41,575 bases of DNA from Gemmatimonadota bacterium (lineage in GTDB: Bacteria; Gemmatimonadota; Gemmatimonadetes; Longimicrobiales; Gaopeijiaceae): NCBI GenBank assembly GCA_012267505.1, contig JAAXGI010000196.1:1-41575 (forward strand), in the 5' to 3' direction. Below are positions 35,504 through 41,575 of this stretch, piece by piece. The position numbers and the translations under genes were made by a program. Position 1 is the stretch's first letter, and every line of letters starts with the position of its first letter. Under the pieces are notes generated by a model. It had not been told where the DNA came from. It made no database searches and saw only the letters and a list, made by a program, of their open reading frames with translations.

Positions 35504-35577
35504 TCGGGGCGCCCGGATTCGAACCGGGGACCTCCTGCTCCCAAAGCAGGCGCGCTACCGGTCTGCGCCACGCCCCG
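35504..35577 (-). tRNA. tRNA-Pro (anticodon TGG)
   Basis: Minus-strand cloverleaf: acceptor CGGGGCG/CGCCCCG, D-arm GCGC/GCGC, anticodon stem CCTGC/GCAGG enclosing TTTGGGA, so the anticodon is TGG. The T-arm is CCCGG-TTCGAAT-CCGGG. The discriminator is A at 35504 and CCA is not encoded. It marks the left edge of a lower-GC, gene-poor stretch. Confidence 0.95.
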
Positions 35578-36320
35578 TACACCCTTCCACCGCTGGTCTT
35601 GCGTCATACAAATTCAGACAGCTCCGGCGCGGTCCGACTACTTGGATGCGTGCGGTCCGCTGGGAGCCTCGTGTGCTGACCCAATGTGGAGGGATCTGTC
35701 CCGAACCGGGCCGGCAATGGAGGCTTAGACCAGATCACACTCGATTGAGCCCCGCCGTCTTTCCCATGGCGACCTCGCATGACGCACGTACACCGCGACC
35801 GACCGAAGGTAGCCATCGTGCGGATTTCTTCAATTGGCATCCGTATGCCGATCCGATCTCAAGCATCCGGGACCGGGACAGAAAGTCGATTCCGCCCCCG
35901 ACGTCGACGGTCGATCGCATTGGACGGTCCTCCTCACGTCCGGATGTCCCCCGGACGTCCGTATCCTGCGCGTAGATACCGTCAGTCCTTCACTGGCCGT
36001 ATGGGGCTTCCCCTCCCCGCTGAATTCGCTCTTCCCCTCTTCGCTAGCTGCACGAGCGATTGCACGCTGAGCGGCCGCGATTCCGCTATGCTCTGCCTAC
36101 CCCGGGAGCTCCGGTTGAAAAGGGGTGGGCTCCATTCGCCTCCGGCGCCGCTCGCCGAATCCTGCGAAATCGGCTAATTTCTTGAAGTTGCCCATCGTCA
36201 CCGAGTGGGAACCATGCCCGGTATTCGACCGTTTCGTGGTCCCGTCTCCATGCGTTTCAGGGCCGTCGCCCGATGCATCATCGGGTGCCTGGCTCGGGTA
36301 CCGGACCGCGGGATGTCTAC
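35578..36320. other. 743-base gene-poor, lower-GC stretch after tRNA-Pro
   Basis: No gene is supported here. One 60-base line counted by hand (36181-36240) is 57% GC, below the housekeeping genes. It contains a strong inverted repeat at 35936-35958 (ACGTCCGG, seven bases, CCGGACGT) and must hold the promoter of the efflux genes that follow. A plus-strand frame that begins in the antisense of the tRNA is an artefact. No transposase or integrase remnant was recognised. Confidence 0.4.
35936..35958. repeat. Perfect 8-base inverted repeat in intergenic DNA
   Basis: ACGTCCGG and CCGGACGT flank a seven-base spacer. This can be a regulator-binding palindrome or a hairpin. It lies about 360 bases before the efflux gene start, rather far for a simple operator. 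No T-run follows it on either strand. Confidence 0.5.
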
Positions 36321-37892
36321 ATGACAGTCAGCCAGGAAAGGTCCTCCTTCCGGGATCCAGCAGCCCAGTCCGGGCCCGGGGTCCGGTTGGCGTACTCGCC
36401 CCGCCCTGTCATTCCCAGATATGTGTTGCCCACGGTCGCAGCCGGCGTTCTTTCCGCCTGCTCGCTCGCGCCGGACCCCTTGCCCCCGGTTCCGGCATCA
36501 GTCAGGACCCTTCCCGAGGTATTCGCCGCGGGTGAAGTAGAGGGTGCTTATGAGCCGCTCGAATGGTGGACAAGCTTTGCCGACCCGGTCCTCGACGAGA
36601 TCATCCAGGAGGTTCTCGCATCGAACTTCGATCTGGCCGCAGCGGTCGCACGCGTTGAGCAGGCGAGGATGCAGGCCGGCCTCGCCCGTGCCGCCATGTT
36701 TCCGCTGGTCCAGCCGTCGGTAGGCGGCGTCGAATTCGATACGCCCACGAACGCGGGCATCGGAGCCCAGCTGGACGAACTGGGGCTGGGTACGCCACTC
36801 GAGAGCGCAGCTGGGATCGTGCTCCCCGACCGCCTCGGACTGACCACCTACACCCTGAGCATGGAGTTCGCCTACGAGGCCGACTTCTGGGGGCGGAACC
36901 GAAACGACGCGCTCGCCGCGGGAGCTGCTCACCTAGCATCGGAGTCCGATTACGTCAGCGCCCGGATGGGCGTGCTGTCCGAGACGATCGCAACCTATCT
37001 GGAGGTCGTGAATCTCCGGGCGCAGGAGGGACTGACGGAAAGGACAGTGGAGATCGCTGGACAGCTCGAGGCGCTCGCCGTGTCCCGCTATGACAGCGGG
37101 CTCACGGATGTGCGGGATCTCTACGCTGCGCGTCGCAACCTTCGCACCGCCGAGGCCGAGCTGCTCCGGATCGAAGCCCTCCTGGCCGATGCAGAGGGAC
37201 GGCTCTGGGTGCTCGTGGGCGGGTATAGCGAGGAGCTGGAGGACCTGCTTCCAGATGCGATGGCTCCCACTGCGGCATACCCGCCGGTTCCCGCGGGCAT
37301 CGTGGCGGACCTGCTGGTTCAGCGGCCTGACGTCAGCGCGGCGAGGCAGCGCGTCGACGCGGCCCGCTTCTCGGTCGGCGCCCGCCGCGCGGAGCTTTTT
37401 CCGAGACTCTCGCTCCAAGGGTTCATCGGGATCCAGAGTACGGACGCCAACGAGTGGTTCGATGTGGACCAGTGGTTCCGGAACCTGAGCCTGAACCTCC
37501 TCGGCCCGGTCTTCCAGGGCTCACGGCGCCGAAGCCAGCTGGCGCTCGCCGAAGCTCAGCTGAACGAGGCCGCGGCCGCCTACGGGCGTTCCGTCGTTGC
37601 CGCCGTCACCGAGGTTGAGACCGCGCTCACGGGACTCGAGTCGAACCGCCGGCGTCATGCACTCCTGACTTCCGTGATGGAGGACGCCGAGGCCGAGGCC
37701 GATCTCCTCGAGCAACGGTACATTTCGGGAGTGGCCGCGTATGAGGAATTCCTCTCGGCAGCGCAGTCGCTTGTGGCTGCCGAAGGCCTGCTGGCGGCAG
37801 CGGAGCGCGATCTGGGTTACGCCCGTCTCGCGCTGCACCGGGCGCTGGGGGGGGCCTGGACCGCCGAAGATGGGGAGGCGATACAGGAGTAG
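36321..37892 (+). CDS. Outer-membrane efflux lipoprotein, TolC/OprM family
   Basis: Outer-membrane channel of an RND-type efflux system, about 523 residues. It has a lipobox-like LSACS after a hydrophobic run (TVAAGVLSAC), then the OprM start LPPVPASVRTLP and EWWTSFADPVLDEIIQEVLASNFDLAAAVARVEQAR. Two OEP repeats follow. The second begins DLLVQRPDVSAARQRVDAARFSVGARRAELFPRLSL and ends with RYISGVAAYEEFLSAAQSLVAAE. ATG 36321 is chosen; ATG 36273 would lengthen the start without benefit. The N-terminal region before the hydrophobic run is unusually long for a lipoprotein. The adaptor gene begins 30 bases after the stop, so they form one operon. Confidence 0.9.
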   Translation: MTVSQERSSFRDPAAQSGPGVRLAYSPRPVIPRYVLPTVAAGVLSACSLAPDPLPPVPASVRTLPEVFAAGEVEGAYEPLEWWTSFADPVLDEIIQEVLASNFDLAAAVARVEQARMQAGLARAAMFPLVQPSVGGVEFDTPTNAGIGAQLDELGLGTPLESAAGIVLPDRLGLTTYTLSMEFAYEADFWGRNRNDALAAGAAHLASESDYVSARMGVLSETIATYLEVVNLRAQEGLTERTVEIAGQLEALAVSRYDSGLTDVRDLYAARRNLRTAEAELLRIEALLADAEGRLWVLVGGYSEELEDLLPDAMAPTAAYPPVPAGIVADLLVQRPDVSAARQRVDAARFSVGARRAELFPRLSLQGFIGIQSTDANEWFDVDQWFRNLSLNLLGPVFQGSRRRSQLALAEAQLNEAAAAYGRSVVAAVTEVETALTGLESNRRRHALLTSVMEDAEAEADLLEQRYISGVAAYEEFLSAAQSLVAAEGLLAAAERDLGYARLALHRALGGAWTAEDGEAIQE

Positions 37893-37922: not shown

Positions 37923-39110
37923 GTGGATAGCATGTCCCGCGTATCCGGTCTGGTGACTGCCGGTGCCATCGTCCTCGTTTCCCTGGCGATCGCGGCTCTC
38001 CTGATCTCTCGTGCGCCCGAGCCTACGCGCACGGATCCGCCGGCGCAGATCCCGTTCGCGCAGACCGGCCTGGCAGCGACCGGGTCCGGACCGATCCCCG
38101 TTTACGGGGCCGGCACGGTGCGCCCCAGCGCGGAGATTGACATCGCCCCGCAGGTCAGCGGGAGGGTGGTCTCGGTGGATCCGCGTTTCCGGAGCGGGGG
38201 GCGGGTCGTGGCGGGCCAGACGCTCTTTCGCATCGAGGACGACGACTACCGGTACCAAGTGGAAGAGGCCGAGGCCAACCTCGCCGCGCGCCGCGTGGCC
38301 CTCCTCGAGGAACGGGAGAGGTCCGACATCGCCCGGACGCAGTACGAATTCTATTCCGACGCCCGGGACGGGTCGGTGTCCGGGACGGGCGCAAGTCCGC
38401 TGACCCTGAGGGAGCCACAGCTGAACGCCGCCATCGCCGCCGTAGAGCGCGACGAGGCCCGGCTCGCGAGCGTGAACCTCGCGCTTTCGAGAACCGTCGT
38501 GACCGCGCCGTTCGCCGGGTTCGTGCGGGAGGAGTCGGTGGACCTAGGGCAGATTGTGGCCGCCGGCCAGCCCGTCGGGCGGCTCTTCGCATCCGATGCG
38601 GTGGAAGTGGTCGTGCCCCTGTCCGATGCCGATGCGGCGCTCGTTCCGGGACTCTGGGCGGTGGAGGGGGAGGCAGGGGCTTCCGCCCGCGTCACCGCGG
38701 AATACGGGGCCGGAAGCTACGTTTGGGAGGGGTACGTGGACCGGGCCGAGGCGTTCCTCGACGCGCAGACGCGGACCGTCGACATCGTGGTGCGCGTGCC
38801 GGATCCGTTTCCGGCGGGAGCCGCGGGCGCTCCGCCGCTTCTCGTCGGCGAGTTCGTCGAAGTCGAGATCGAGGGGATCGAAGTCGACGCCTACTTCAGG
38901 GTGCCACGCGCGGCGCTCCAGCCGGGTGACGAGGTCTGGATGGTGAGAGACGGTGCGGTGACGATCGTCCCCGTCCAAGTGCTCCAGCGCGCCGACGACG
39001 AGGTGTTCGTAACGGGCTCGCTGGCGCACGGGGCGGCGGTGGTCACCGGCGGCCTCCCGTTCGCGACCGAGGGGATGCCGGTCCAAGCCGAGGCCGGCGC
39101 GTCGCCATGA
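37923..39110 (+). CDS. RND efflux periplasmic adaptor (HlyD/AcrA family)
   Basis: Membrane-fusion protein of 395 residues linking an inner-membrane RND pump to the TolC-like channel. It has an N-terminal anchor (GAIVLVSLAIAALLI), a barrel-sandwich half with GAGTVRPSAEIDIAPQVSGRVVSV, an alpha-helical hairpin (about 110-190) and the returning half SRTVVTAPFAGFVREESVDLGQIVAAGQP. A beta-barrel and membrane-proximal domain follow, with RVPRAALQPGDEVWMV. The start is GTG 37923 or ATG 37932. Its TGA overlaps an ATG (ATGA at 39107-39110), the usual coupling to a pump gene, but that gene is broken (see 39107-39212). Confidence 0.92.
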   Translation: MDSMSRVSGLVTAGAIVLVSLAIAALLISRAPEPTRTDPPAQIPFAQTGLAATGSGPIPVYGAGTVRPSAEIDIAPQVSGRVVSVDPRFRSGGRVVAGQTLFRIEDDDYRYQVEEAEANLAARRVALLEERERSDIARTQYEFYSDARDGSVSGTGASPLTLREPQLNAAIAAVERDEARLASVNLALSRTVVTAPFAGFVREESVDLGQIVAAGQPVGRLFASDAVEVVVPLSDADAALVPGLWAVEGEAGASARVTAEYGAGSYVWEGYVDRAEAFLDAQTRTVDIVVRVPDPFPAGAAGAPPLLVGEFVEVEIEGIEVDAYFRVPRAALQPGDEVWMVRDGAVTIVPVQVLQRADDEVFVTGSLAHGAAVVTGGLPFATEGMPVQAEAGASP

Positions 39111-39212
39111 CAACCAGACGGGCGCGGCAACGGGGAGCCATCCGGCCCGGTCGCCTACATGGCGGACAACAGCGTTGCATCCAACCTCTTTATGTGGGCG
39201 ATCATCGCCGCC
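39107..39212 (+). pseudogene. Truncated and frameshifted start of an RND efflux pump
   Basis: An ATG overlaps the adaptor stop exactly where the inner-membrane pump gene should begin. The first frame reads MTTRRARQRGAIRP and then, after a one-base shift near 39150, the second frame continues VAYMADNSVASNLFMWAIIAA. The block with NSVASNL is the typical start of TM1 in RND pumps. After about 39212 the similarity stops abruptly, and the remaining 1000 or so codons are missing. The next sequence is unrelated and leads into the end of the opposite-strand methyltransferase gene. This is a real remnant, or an assembly join with a local base error. Confidence 0.7.
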
Positions 39213-39333
39213 GACTCGGCAAATACCGCCGACACTGCCGACAGTTCTATCCGAACCCGGCGATGGCGCCTCGAAGTCCGGACCGCAACGGCGATTAGGC
39301 AGCCCTCACAGCCGGGCAGTGGGACGGTTGTGT

Positions 39334-40374
39334 TCAGGCCCGAAGGGGTTTGCGGGCCAAGAAACAATACAGCGGCGTGAAGATGCCCGCCTTGCCGCCA
39401 GCGACGTAAGCCTCCGCAGTTCGATCAAGGAGTCGAACGACTTCCGCCGAGCCGTTGGGAAAGAGCCGCAGTACCTCGGCCAACTTCGACCCCGCGATGA
39501 ACGCCTTGCGGCCCCACGGAAGCCTGCGCACCGTGTTCCCCAACGTCCCGTGGCGACTCTGCATTGGTTGATACCAGGGCGTGGACTGTCCTTCCCGGAC
39601 GTCCCAATCGCTCCCCTCGATGACTTGAAATCCCGCCCCTTCGAGAGCGTGATTCACTTCCCCGAACGTGGCGATATCGTGCAGCGCAATACCGCGCATG
39701 AGGTTCCGCTTGATGGTCCGGTGCCGGCCGTCCCGCGGATCGAACCGGTCCGTCAGGCACATTTCCTGACCCCAGAACAGGGCACCCGGCTTCAGTACGC
39801 GGAATATCTCCGCGAAAGCGCGTTGTTTGTTCTGCGCATGACACGTTGACTCTATGGCGTAACCCCGGTCGAAGGTGTGGGCGTCGATGGCGCTCATGTC
39901 CGCGAAGCTGCACTTCCTGAAATCGGCCATGTGCTCCAGCCCTGCCTCGGCGTTCAACTTCTTCGCCTCCGCCAGCTGGATCTCATTGATGTTGATTCCC
40001 ACGACCCTGACACCCGTCTCACGGATGACGCGGCGCATGGGGCCGCCGACTCCACAACCAACGTCGATCACCTTCATGCCCCGTTGCAGCTGCAACTTGG
40101 AGATCATCGCCCGCTGGTGCCGGACCTTGGACTCCTCCAGACTTTCGTTAGGCGTGAGTGGTGCAAAATGCAGGGATTCGCCCCAGCCCCACACCATGAA
40201 GCCGTTGCAAAGCTCGTAGTAGTCCCTGACCGTTGCCACGTGGTCGTAGGTGCCCGCGCCCGCAGCCTCCGATGCCGCCCGGTCAAGCCAGCCGTTAAAG
40301 TGCCGGACTCGACGCGCGACGCCCGATTCCGGGTACGCACCCCTCAGCGCCCTCGACAGTTTGCCCAGTCGCAT
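39334..40374 (-). CDS. Sterol C-24 methyltransferase family protein (Erg6/SMT type)
   Basis: SAM-dependent methyltransferase of 346 residues, very close in motif pattern to eukaryotic sterol 24-C-methyltransferases. The sterol-binding region I is seen at 52-72 (YYELCNGFMVWGWGESLHF, compare the YE.GWG.SFHFA pattern of Erg6). SAM motif I is VIDVGCGVGGP (102-112), followed by GININEIQLAEAKKLNAEAG (compare GLNNNEYQ..RA). Region III GYAIESTCHAQ (171-181) leads to the FRVLKPGALF turn. The C-terminal SMT domain ends AYVAGGKAGIFTPLYCFLARKP (323-344), as in Erg6. Length is normal (about 340-380). It starts 12 bases after the P450 stop, so the two are probably co-transcribed. An alternative is methylation of another triterpenoid or a tocopherol-like acceptor. 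Confidence 0.9.
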   Translation of the reverse strand: MRLGKLSRALRGAYPESGVARRVRHFNGWLDRAASEAAGAGTYDHVATVRDYYELCNGFMVWGWGESLHFAPLTPNESLEESKVRHQRAMISKLQLQRGMKVIDVGCGVGGPMRRVIRETGVRVVGININEIQLAEAKKLNAEAGLEHMADFRKCSFADMSAIDAHTFDRGYAIESTCHAQNKQRAFAEIFRVLKPGALFWGQEMCLTDRFDPRDGRHRTIKRNLMRGIALHDIATFGEVNHALEGAGFQVIEGSDWDVREGQSTPWYQPMQSRHGTLGNTVRRLPWGRKAFIAGSKLAEVLRLFPNGSAEVVRLLDRTAEAYVAGGKAGIFTPLYCFLARKPLRA

Positions 40375-40386
40375 CTTGGGGGTCTC

Positions 40387-41575
40387 TCAGGCGGGCAGCT
40401 CGCGCCGCTGCTCGGAGATGCGGAATTTTAGCTTCTTGCTCGGCTTCAGCGACGGAAACGGGTTGAATCGGAGCTTCTGGGTGTACTTTGCCGGCGACAC
40501 CTCAATCGTGAAATAGTGTGCCAGCATCAGCAAGTTGACCGCCAAGTGCATCTCCATCCACTGGGTGCCGAGACACCTGTGCGTACCCAGCCCGTACGGG
40601 GCGAACCCGAGGCTGCGATGCTCACGACGCGACGGCAGGAAGCGGTCGATGTCGAACTTGTAGGGCTCGGAAAAGACTTCGCTCATATAATGCGTGGCGG
40701 TCATGGCGATGTGGATCCGTTCCCCCACGGGCAGCTCATAGTTCCCGACCTTGCAGGTATTCATCACGGTCCGAATAGACATGGGCACGATCGGGTACAT
40801 GCGCAGGCACTCCATGAGGAAGCGGTGAGTCACGTCGATGTTGGCGGGGATGAAGTCCTCTTTCTCGGGGTCACCCTTGGCAAACAGGGCATCCGCTTCG
40901 GCTTGGATCCTGTCGTAGAGAGCCGGCTGTGACGCCATGGCGTAGACCAGGAGGCTGAACGTATCGCCGAGGTACACGCTAGCAATCAGGGCCGCGGAAA
41001 AAGCGAAGAGAAGGTTGGACTCCGGGAGAAACTGAGGATCGCTGGCGTGCAGGCTGAGATAATCGTCCACTAGGTTCCGCGGGCTATCCACCCGTTGGAC
41101 GGGAGTATGGACCGTTAAGACCCGTTCCATCAGCGTGTCCAGGACTGCTGCCCGACGTCTCATACCCGGGGTATGCAGCGTGAACTTGGGCAGGATCCTA
41201 GCGATGTGCACGCTGAGGGCCCGTTCCTTGTAAACCATCAGGTCGTCCATGAGATCTTGCGTGTCGACGCCGATGAACAGCGGCGATAGCTGGGCGTTCA
41301 CCATTGCCCGGCTCATGGACGTGGCACGGTAGGAATCCCCAACCGTCAGGGTCGACATGTACGCGCGCCCCTTGTTGTAGAGCTGGTCCAGCTGCCCTAC
41401 CAGCCTCGTGCGGGAATAAGCCGGCGACAAGAACTTGCGAAGCCGGAAGTGGTCGGCCCCGTCCAAGGCAGGGAGAACGCCAGCCGCGCCGTAGACTTTC
41501 TCAAAGTCGGAGAAGTAATCCCTGGTTCTCAGGTACATGCGCCCGCGCTTTTGCACCCATTCATTCGTCTCGAGT
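40387..41575 (-). CDS. Cytochrome P450, 5' end beyond the window
   Basis: Haem-thiolate monooxygenase; 389 residues from GTG 41556, but the frame stays open to the window edge, so the N-terminus is missing. Counting from GTG 41556, DGADHFRLRKFLSPAYS (32-48) is the helix-C region and helix I reads ASVYLGDTFS with the acid-alcohol pair Asp198-Thr199. The K-helix ExxR is ECLR (249-252), FDIDRFLPSR is the meander entry, and the haem loop is YGLGTHRCLG (321-330) with Cys328 as ligand. The usual Phe seven residues before the Cys is Tyr. The N-terminal motif specific to CYP51 is not visible, so sterol 14-demethylase is not supported. Pairing with the SMT gene suggests a sterol or triterpenoid substrate. 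No redox partner is in the window. Confidence 0.9.
   Translation of the reverse strand, partial: LETNEWVQKRGRMYLRTRDYFSDFEKVYGAAGVLPALDGADHFRLRKFLSPAYSRTRLVGQLDQLYNKGRAYMSTLTVGDSYRATSMSRAMVNAQLSPLFIGVDTQDLMDDLMVYKERALSVHIARILPKFTLHTPGMRRRAAVLDTLMERVLTVHTPVQRVDSPRNLVDDYLSLHASDPQFLPESNLLFAFSAALIASVYLGDTFSLLVYAMASQPALYDRIQAEADALFAKGDPEKEDFIPANIDVTHRFLMECLRMYPIVPMSIRTVMNTCKVGNYELPVGERIHIAMTATHYMSEVFSEPYKFDIDRFLPSRREHRSLGFAPYGLGTHRCLGTQWMEMHLAVNLLMLAHYFTIEVSPAKYTQKLRFNPFPSLKPSKKLKFRISEQRRELPA

Follow-up and report, generated by a model that had tools for sequence, protein, structure and literature searches.

A sterol methyltransferase homologue with an altered sterol site and its neighbouring cytochrome P450 as the probable remaining end of a sterol-tailoring module of sponge and coral bacteria

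Analysis of a 41,575-nucleotide stretch of Gemmatimonadota DNA (hereafter the window) identified, at its right end, a sterol methyltransferase (SMT) homologue adjacent to a cytochrome P450. On balance we interpret this pair as the end that is left of a sterol-tailoring module, one that has spread horizontally among sponge and coral bacteria and in which a remodelled SMT would act on salvaged sterols, and we hold this interpretation with moderate confidence. The gene content of the module is conserved, and the catalytic motifs of its SMT, P450 and Rieske oxygenase are intact. In the proposed pathway, ready-made sterols would be taken up from the host, its diet or neighbouring symbionts, most carriers apparently making no sterols of their own; they would be oxidized by a membrane-associated GPP34-P450 fusion, a Rieske oxygenase and a flavin oxidoreductase, and methylated by the remodelled SMT, and an RND system, whose direction of transport we infer, would carry either the substrate or the product through the cell envelope.

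The initial annotation had described a 346-residue Erg6/SMT homologue, and this was borne out by the Pfam domains of the protein (Sterol_MT_C, PF08498, 56.9 bits against a cut-off of 21.7; Methyltransf_11, 60.2 bits), which place it in the broad family of class I methyltransferases with a C-terminal Sterol_MT_C domain, and by its full-length identity to eukaryotic SMTs. Identity was 42% to Arabidopsis SMT1, 35% to yeast Erg6 and 33% to SMT2, each over at least 300 residues, as against 28% over only about 160 residues to gamma-tocopherol methyltransferase; these approximate values agree with the earlier assignment as a bacterial SMT homologue rather than a tocopherol-type enzyme. The AlphaFold model of the window SMT was mediocre (pLDDT 68.8), and its structure hits included no sterol methyltransferase. 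Values of dN/dS in comparison with relatives (0.21–0.26 for the SMT and 0.14–0.17 for the P450) are taken to indicate constraint on both genes. A plasmid or phage origin of the SMT was considered and rejected, with no close kin found there and a Legionella methyltransferase of 25% identity as the best match.

Table 1. Features of the sterol-tailoring locus at the right end of the window (substitutions in yeast Erg6 numbering)
Feature	Position	Strand	Remarks
Outer-membrane factor (OMF) of module RND system	36273..37892	+	OEP, 137.5 bits
Membrane-fusion protein (MFP) of module RND system	37923..39110	+	HlyD_3/HlyD_D23
acrB remnant	39117..39212	+	About 32 codons of gene start, abuts Rieske remnant; 72% to AcrB of locus L029, E 3.6e-11
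Rieske remnant	39215..39298	+	Last 27 codons and stop of KshA-type oxygenase gene; 89% to residues 333-359 of locus L005 protein, tblastn E 3.6e-12
SMT homologue	39334..40374	-	346 aa, ATG start, intact, clade C; Pfam, alignment and tree
SMT region IV	39760..39774	-	Residues 201-205, WGQEM; A221W, Y223Q, W225M
SMT region II	40039..40071	-	SAM-binding VIDVGCGVGGP, canonical
SMT region I	40165..40197	-	Residues 60-70, MVWGWGESLHF; Y81M, E82V, F89L
GPP34-P450 fusion	40387..41574	-	C-terminal 395 aa; 5' part beyond contig end

Residue comparison of the window SMT showed FMVWGWGESLHF in region I, where canonical enzymes have FYEYGWGxSFHF, and WGQEMC in region IV, where AxYEWC is canonical. The 24-SMT signature Y81EYGWG86 is accordingly replaced by MVWGWG and the region IV YEW by QEM, and the SAM motif of region II and E195/H199 of region III are present throughout the clade to which the protein belongs. 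In a tree built by a quick method with SH-aLRT support only, this clade (clade C) comprised 68 rows, with a support of 89 and a stem length of 0.64 changes per site, and SMTs linked to sterol operons fell among other bacterial SMTs outside it. Y81M, F89L, A221W, Y223Q and W225M occurred in 68/68 clade C sequences and E82V in 64/68; these rows include near copies, which overstates their independence, yet about 12 phyla are represented among them. Other bacterial SMT clades keep the Y/E/F of region I with few exceptions, the W/Q/M of region IV is absent from clades A and B as well as from three eukaryote references, and at all six sites other bacterial SMTs and these references have canonical or similar residues, again with few exceptions. 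SAM region II, W85, H90, E195 and H199 are unchanged in clade C, and position 83 is almost always aromatic.

The aromatic residues of region I have been assigned the role of stabilizing the cation during methylation of the sterol (PMC5711494); a nematode SMT lacking them methylates C-4 of 3-oxo sterols (PMC6997595). In light of these two reports and the replacements in regions I and IV, we therefore did not classify the window protein as a 24-SMT, although certain changes in region I may be compatible with 24-SMT function. The earlier label of an Erg6-type C-24 methyltransferase thus held for the SMT family and was too specific as to C-24, since the residues that mark 24-SMTs in regions I and IV are replaced clade-wide; similarly, of the regions I–III that it had listed, the SAM-binding region II and the sterol region III were recovered in canonical form together with the C-terminal SMT domain, and region I was not.

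A gap of 12 bases separates the P450 gene (Pfam p450, 104 bits) from the start codon of the SMT on the same strand, as had been noted; the P450 gene is cut by the contig end at 41575, with about 280 N-terminal residues missing. In relatives the corresponding 280 or so residues consist of a GPP34 domain, the Golgi phosphoprotein 3 domain, followed by the P450 N-terminus. The window part shares 91% identity with residues 281-675 of the L005 fusion protein, and 64 full-length P450 relatives align over both fusion parts, GPP34 being confirmed by Pfam in the two that were scanned. The GPP34 domain may serve to tether the P450 to the membrane. Because the same P450 accompanies a clade-type SMT at 70 of 81 loci, the window included, the pairing is not due to chance. 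GTHxCLG was found in 62/64 and ExxRxYP in 60/64 of the module P450s, as expected of heme-thiolate P450s, and the structure model was good (pLDDT 84). By profile (best match bacterial CYP51, E 1e-31) and by fold, the closest solved relative is the CYP51 of M. capsulatus. The module P450s differ from bacterial CYP51 in their N-terminal GPP34 domain and in the CYP51 I-helix motif GQHTS, which was present in 1/64 and missing from the other 63/64, as against 3/3 of the operon CYP51s that were read.

In public genomes, 219 relatives were found by scanning, the best 80 of which were 66–90% identical and carried 12 phylum labels, among them Gemmatimonadota, Acidobacteriota, Chloroflexota, Nitrospirota and Pseudomonadota. 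Judged by record titles, nearly all of these 80 were apparently sponge or coral MAGs, and the RHO, COS and IRC bin names among the relatives fit species of a sponge MAG study (PMC8163846). Across 81 loci (the best 80 of the 219 relatives and the window), the P450 was found in 70, a Rieske oxygenase in 57 and a flavin oxidoreductase in 41, and an RND transporter of either AcrB or MMPL type, the two never together, was found at 58 of the 80 relatives. The SMT, GPP34-P450, KshA-type Rieske oxygenase, often the flavin oxidoreductase, and the RND transporter form a recurring module, and the initial view that the SMT-P450 pair belongs to a side-chain or nucleus-tailoring cluster was upheld by the loci of the relatives as far as a conserved, sterol-linked gene set is concerned. 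Like KshA-type oxygenases, the Rieske protein carries KshA_C, the Pfam domain of 3-ketosteroid hydroxylase, and its Rieske cluster and iron motifs are kept in all 55 full-length module proteins. ERG4/ERG24-type reductases (Pfam) occur at some module loci themselves and in 35/50 carrier genomes, with none in the window MAG. At locus L056 (5416-7899) and the other MMPL loci, the MMPL transporter replaces the AcrB system, and the one scanned (L056) has a sterol-sensing/Patched domain (Pfam). Six loci also hold a TPR-repeat protein of about 250 aa, which follows the SMT in L043, L050, L054 and L055. A second "SMT" at L005 (3-1127) and similar short ones were discarded as spurious reading frames lying in another frame over acrB.

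Four loci tie the module to sterols, because a sterol operon adjoins it in L031, L032 and L034 (Nitrospirota) and in L037. The operon pieces seen included an SDR with a 3Beta_HSD match, a VanA_C-type Rieske protein distinct from the KshA_C protein of the module, ERG24 and a CYP51 with GQHTS; L031 and L034 additionally had a squalene epoxidase-oxidosqualene cyclase fusion with DCTAE, and a canonical SMT lay within the operon in L031, L032 and L034. Neither oxidosqualene cyclase nor squalene epoxidase was detected in the window MAG (3.30 Mb in 318 contigs, 92% complete). Squalene epoxidase was absent from 27 of 29 other genomes tested, with weak matches in the remaining two. Judged by score and by the length of the reading frame, 6/50 carrier genomes have a full-length oxidosqualene cyclase (DCTAE read in three), and 22/50 had a cyclase of some kind above the cut-off, including high-scoring squalene-hopene-type cyclases in 18/50 (DxDDTA read in 13); 27/50 had no cyclase match whatsoever. 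At the module loci, the cyclase motif was found only in L031 and L034. Cyclase absence from any single genome is weak evidence because MAGs are incomplete, but its absence from the window MAG and most carriers makes it probable that the module acts on a ready-made sterol from outside the cell, which is the simplest reading.

The window locus itself is rearranged. Orthologues of its MFP (49–66%) directly precede acrB in ten other module loci, and those of its OMF (60–67%) precede the MFP gene in six, with L028 giving the reference order OMF-MFP-AcrB-P450-SMT-Rieske. Between the MFP gene and the SMT, the window instead has a scar (39117-39298) in which an acrB start is joined to a Rieske gene end. 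Set against the L028 order, such a remainder would be expected from an inversion that broke within both acrB and the Rieske gene; deletions or an assembly error could also have produced it. Inverted repeats at the scar were limited to imperfect arms of 15–21 nt, with nothing convincing at the breakpoint. Another contig of the same MAG (C124; locus L159, 9081-12542) carries an acrB end, a GPP34-P450 broken by a large internal deletion and a frame break, a TPR gene and an intact KshA-type Rieske gene, with no SMT found on that contig; judged by its gene content it is a second, eroded module copy. Given the broken acrB and adjacent Rieske gene, the module may be decaying in the window MAG, though an intact Rieske gene is kept on C124; the SMT and visible P450 part are intact in the window. 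A tRNA-linked island was considered in view of a tRNA-Pro (35504-35577) about 0.7 kb before the OMF gene and was rejected, as the relatives have no consistent tRNA.

Within the window's phylum, the distribution of the SMT is patchy, since matches at E 1e-40 were found in only 35/395 genomes and 5/138 genera. Compared with an Acidobacteria gene carried by a contig of 3.9 Mb, the SMT had a dS of 0.25, a low value that points to a recent transfer between phyla rather than a binning error, and the gene set has evidently moved between about a dozen bacterial phyla. Strict co-inheritance of SMT and P450 as one unit was rejected: their distances correlate (r 0.46), but Acidobacteria and Gemmatimonadota share about 90% identity in the SMT as against 61% in the P450, from which it follows that parts of the module were exchanged separately. 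At the Acidobacteriota loci L010-L019, the SMT and AcrB are both approximately 88–90% identical to those of Gemmatimonadota, with the P450 at only 61%.

Within the same salvage module, the SMT might be an ordinary 24-SMT acting on host desmosterol or 24-methylenecholesterol, its replacements only tuning rate or product range, which we consider possible but unlikely. Such an activity would fit the homology over the full length, the retained E195, H199, H90, W85 and SAM motifs, and the existence of C-24-active sponge-symbiont SMTs, some of them with no cyclase in either the cluster or the MAG (PMC10070321). It is countered by six sterol-site positions replaced together and fixed in 64–68 of 68 sequences on the stem of clade C, by the canonical residues of the SMTs seen within the sterol operon, and by the nematode SMT, in which the region I aromatics were lost alongside a new reaction (PMC6997595). 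In the preferred reading, the methyl group would instead be placed by a path other than the usual C-24 route, or added to a side chain or A ring that has been oxidized beforehand. That clade C represents a new SMT class methylating a position off the C-24 route (such as C-26, C-22/23 or ring A) and, with GPP34-P450, yielding unusual sponge-attributed sterols from host sterol is a tentative proposal to which we give a fairly low probability; enzymes for C-26 methylation are still undiscovered according to PMC10070321.

A polycyclic isoprenoid other than a sterol, for instance a hopanoid or specialized triterpenoid, is an improbable substrate. Most carriers lack sterol synthesis, over a third of the 50 have the squalene-hopene-type cyclases described above, the pocket residues of clade C are unlike those of sterol SMTs, and the Rieske, P450 and amine-oxidase families are promiscuous; however, with the window MAG and 27/50 carriers lacking any cyclase match, hopanoids are not the general substrate, and KshA_C, the CYP51-like P450, the sterol-sensing transporter and the sterol reductases all point to steroids. 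The initial annotation had instead predicted a de novo bacterial sterol cluster, with oxidosqualene cyclase and squalene epoxidase beyond 41575. In its favour, six carriers have a full-length oxidosqualene cyclase and the cyclase gene stands beside the module in L031 and L034. The assembly contains no sequence past 41575, and intact relatives have GPP34-P450, an AcrB or MMPL pump, the Rieske oxygenase and the flavin oxidoreductase at the corresponding place; the other loci lack a cyclase motif, the sterol operon carries its own canonical SMT, and the window MAG has neither enzyme, which at 92% completeness is not final. A de novo cluster is therefore very improbable, and the salvage of ready-made sterols by a module with a remodelled SMT remains our preferred reading.

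Sponge symbionts are already known to carry SMTs and sterol clusters (PMC10070321, PMC9531527). Brown et al. (2023) reported 7966 metagenomic SMT homologues and active sponge-symbiont SMTs that methylate desmosterol (PMC10070321), which renders outdated the earlier statement that bacterial SMTs come from only a few lineages. Their SMTs share with ours the family, the bacterial origin, the sponge symbiont metagenomes and, in some cases, the lack of linkage to a cyclase; compared by description, their clusters contain erg and sdmAB homologues, and a P450 is unmentioned in the main text. Kelly et al. (2022) described steroid gene clusters in Ircinia symbionts with an ERG24-CYP51-LSS core and often an SMT on the opposite strand (PMC9531527). 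These too are horizontally transferred, cross-phylum sterol genes of sponge symbionts, whereas the window module lacks that core and has its own P450, Rieske protein, flavin enzyme and transporters, and the L034 SMT in the Ircinia-cluster SMT position is of canonical type. The nematode sterol C4-alpha-methyltransferase (PMC6997595) is likewise an SMT relative whose region I is without the signature aromatics and which acts on externally acquired sterols, as proposed for the window module; this likeness concerns region I features, and the nematode enzyme differs in acting on C-4 of 3-oxo sterols, whereas clade C retains W85 and, in nearly every member, an aromatic residue at position 83. For the GPP34-P450 fusion, the altered SMT clade and the module, no published description was found in the open-access literature.

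C30 sterane biomarkers serve as evidence for the oldest animals, and their origin depends on that of unconventional sponge sterols. A module spread across about a dozen phyla, with an altered SMT pocket and a GPP34-P450, provides concrete candidate genes for such sterols, and its distribution suggests that many symbionts remodel sterols that are not of their own making. If clade C does methylate off the C-24 route and yields such sterols, this symbiont module, shared through horizontal transfer, would be one origin of sterols relevant to biomarkers.
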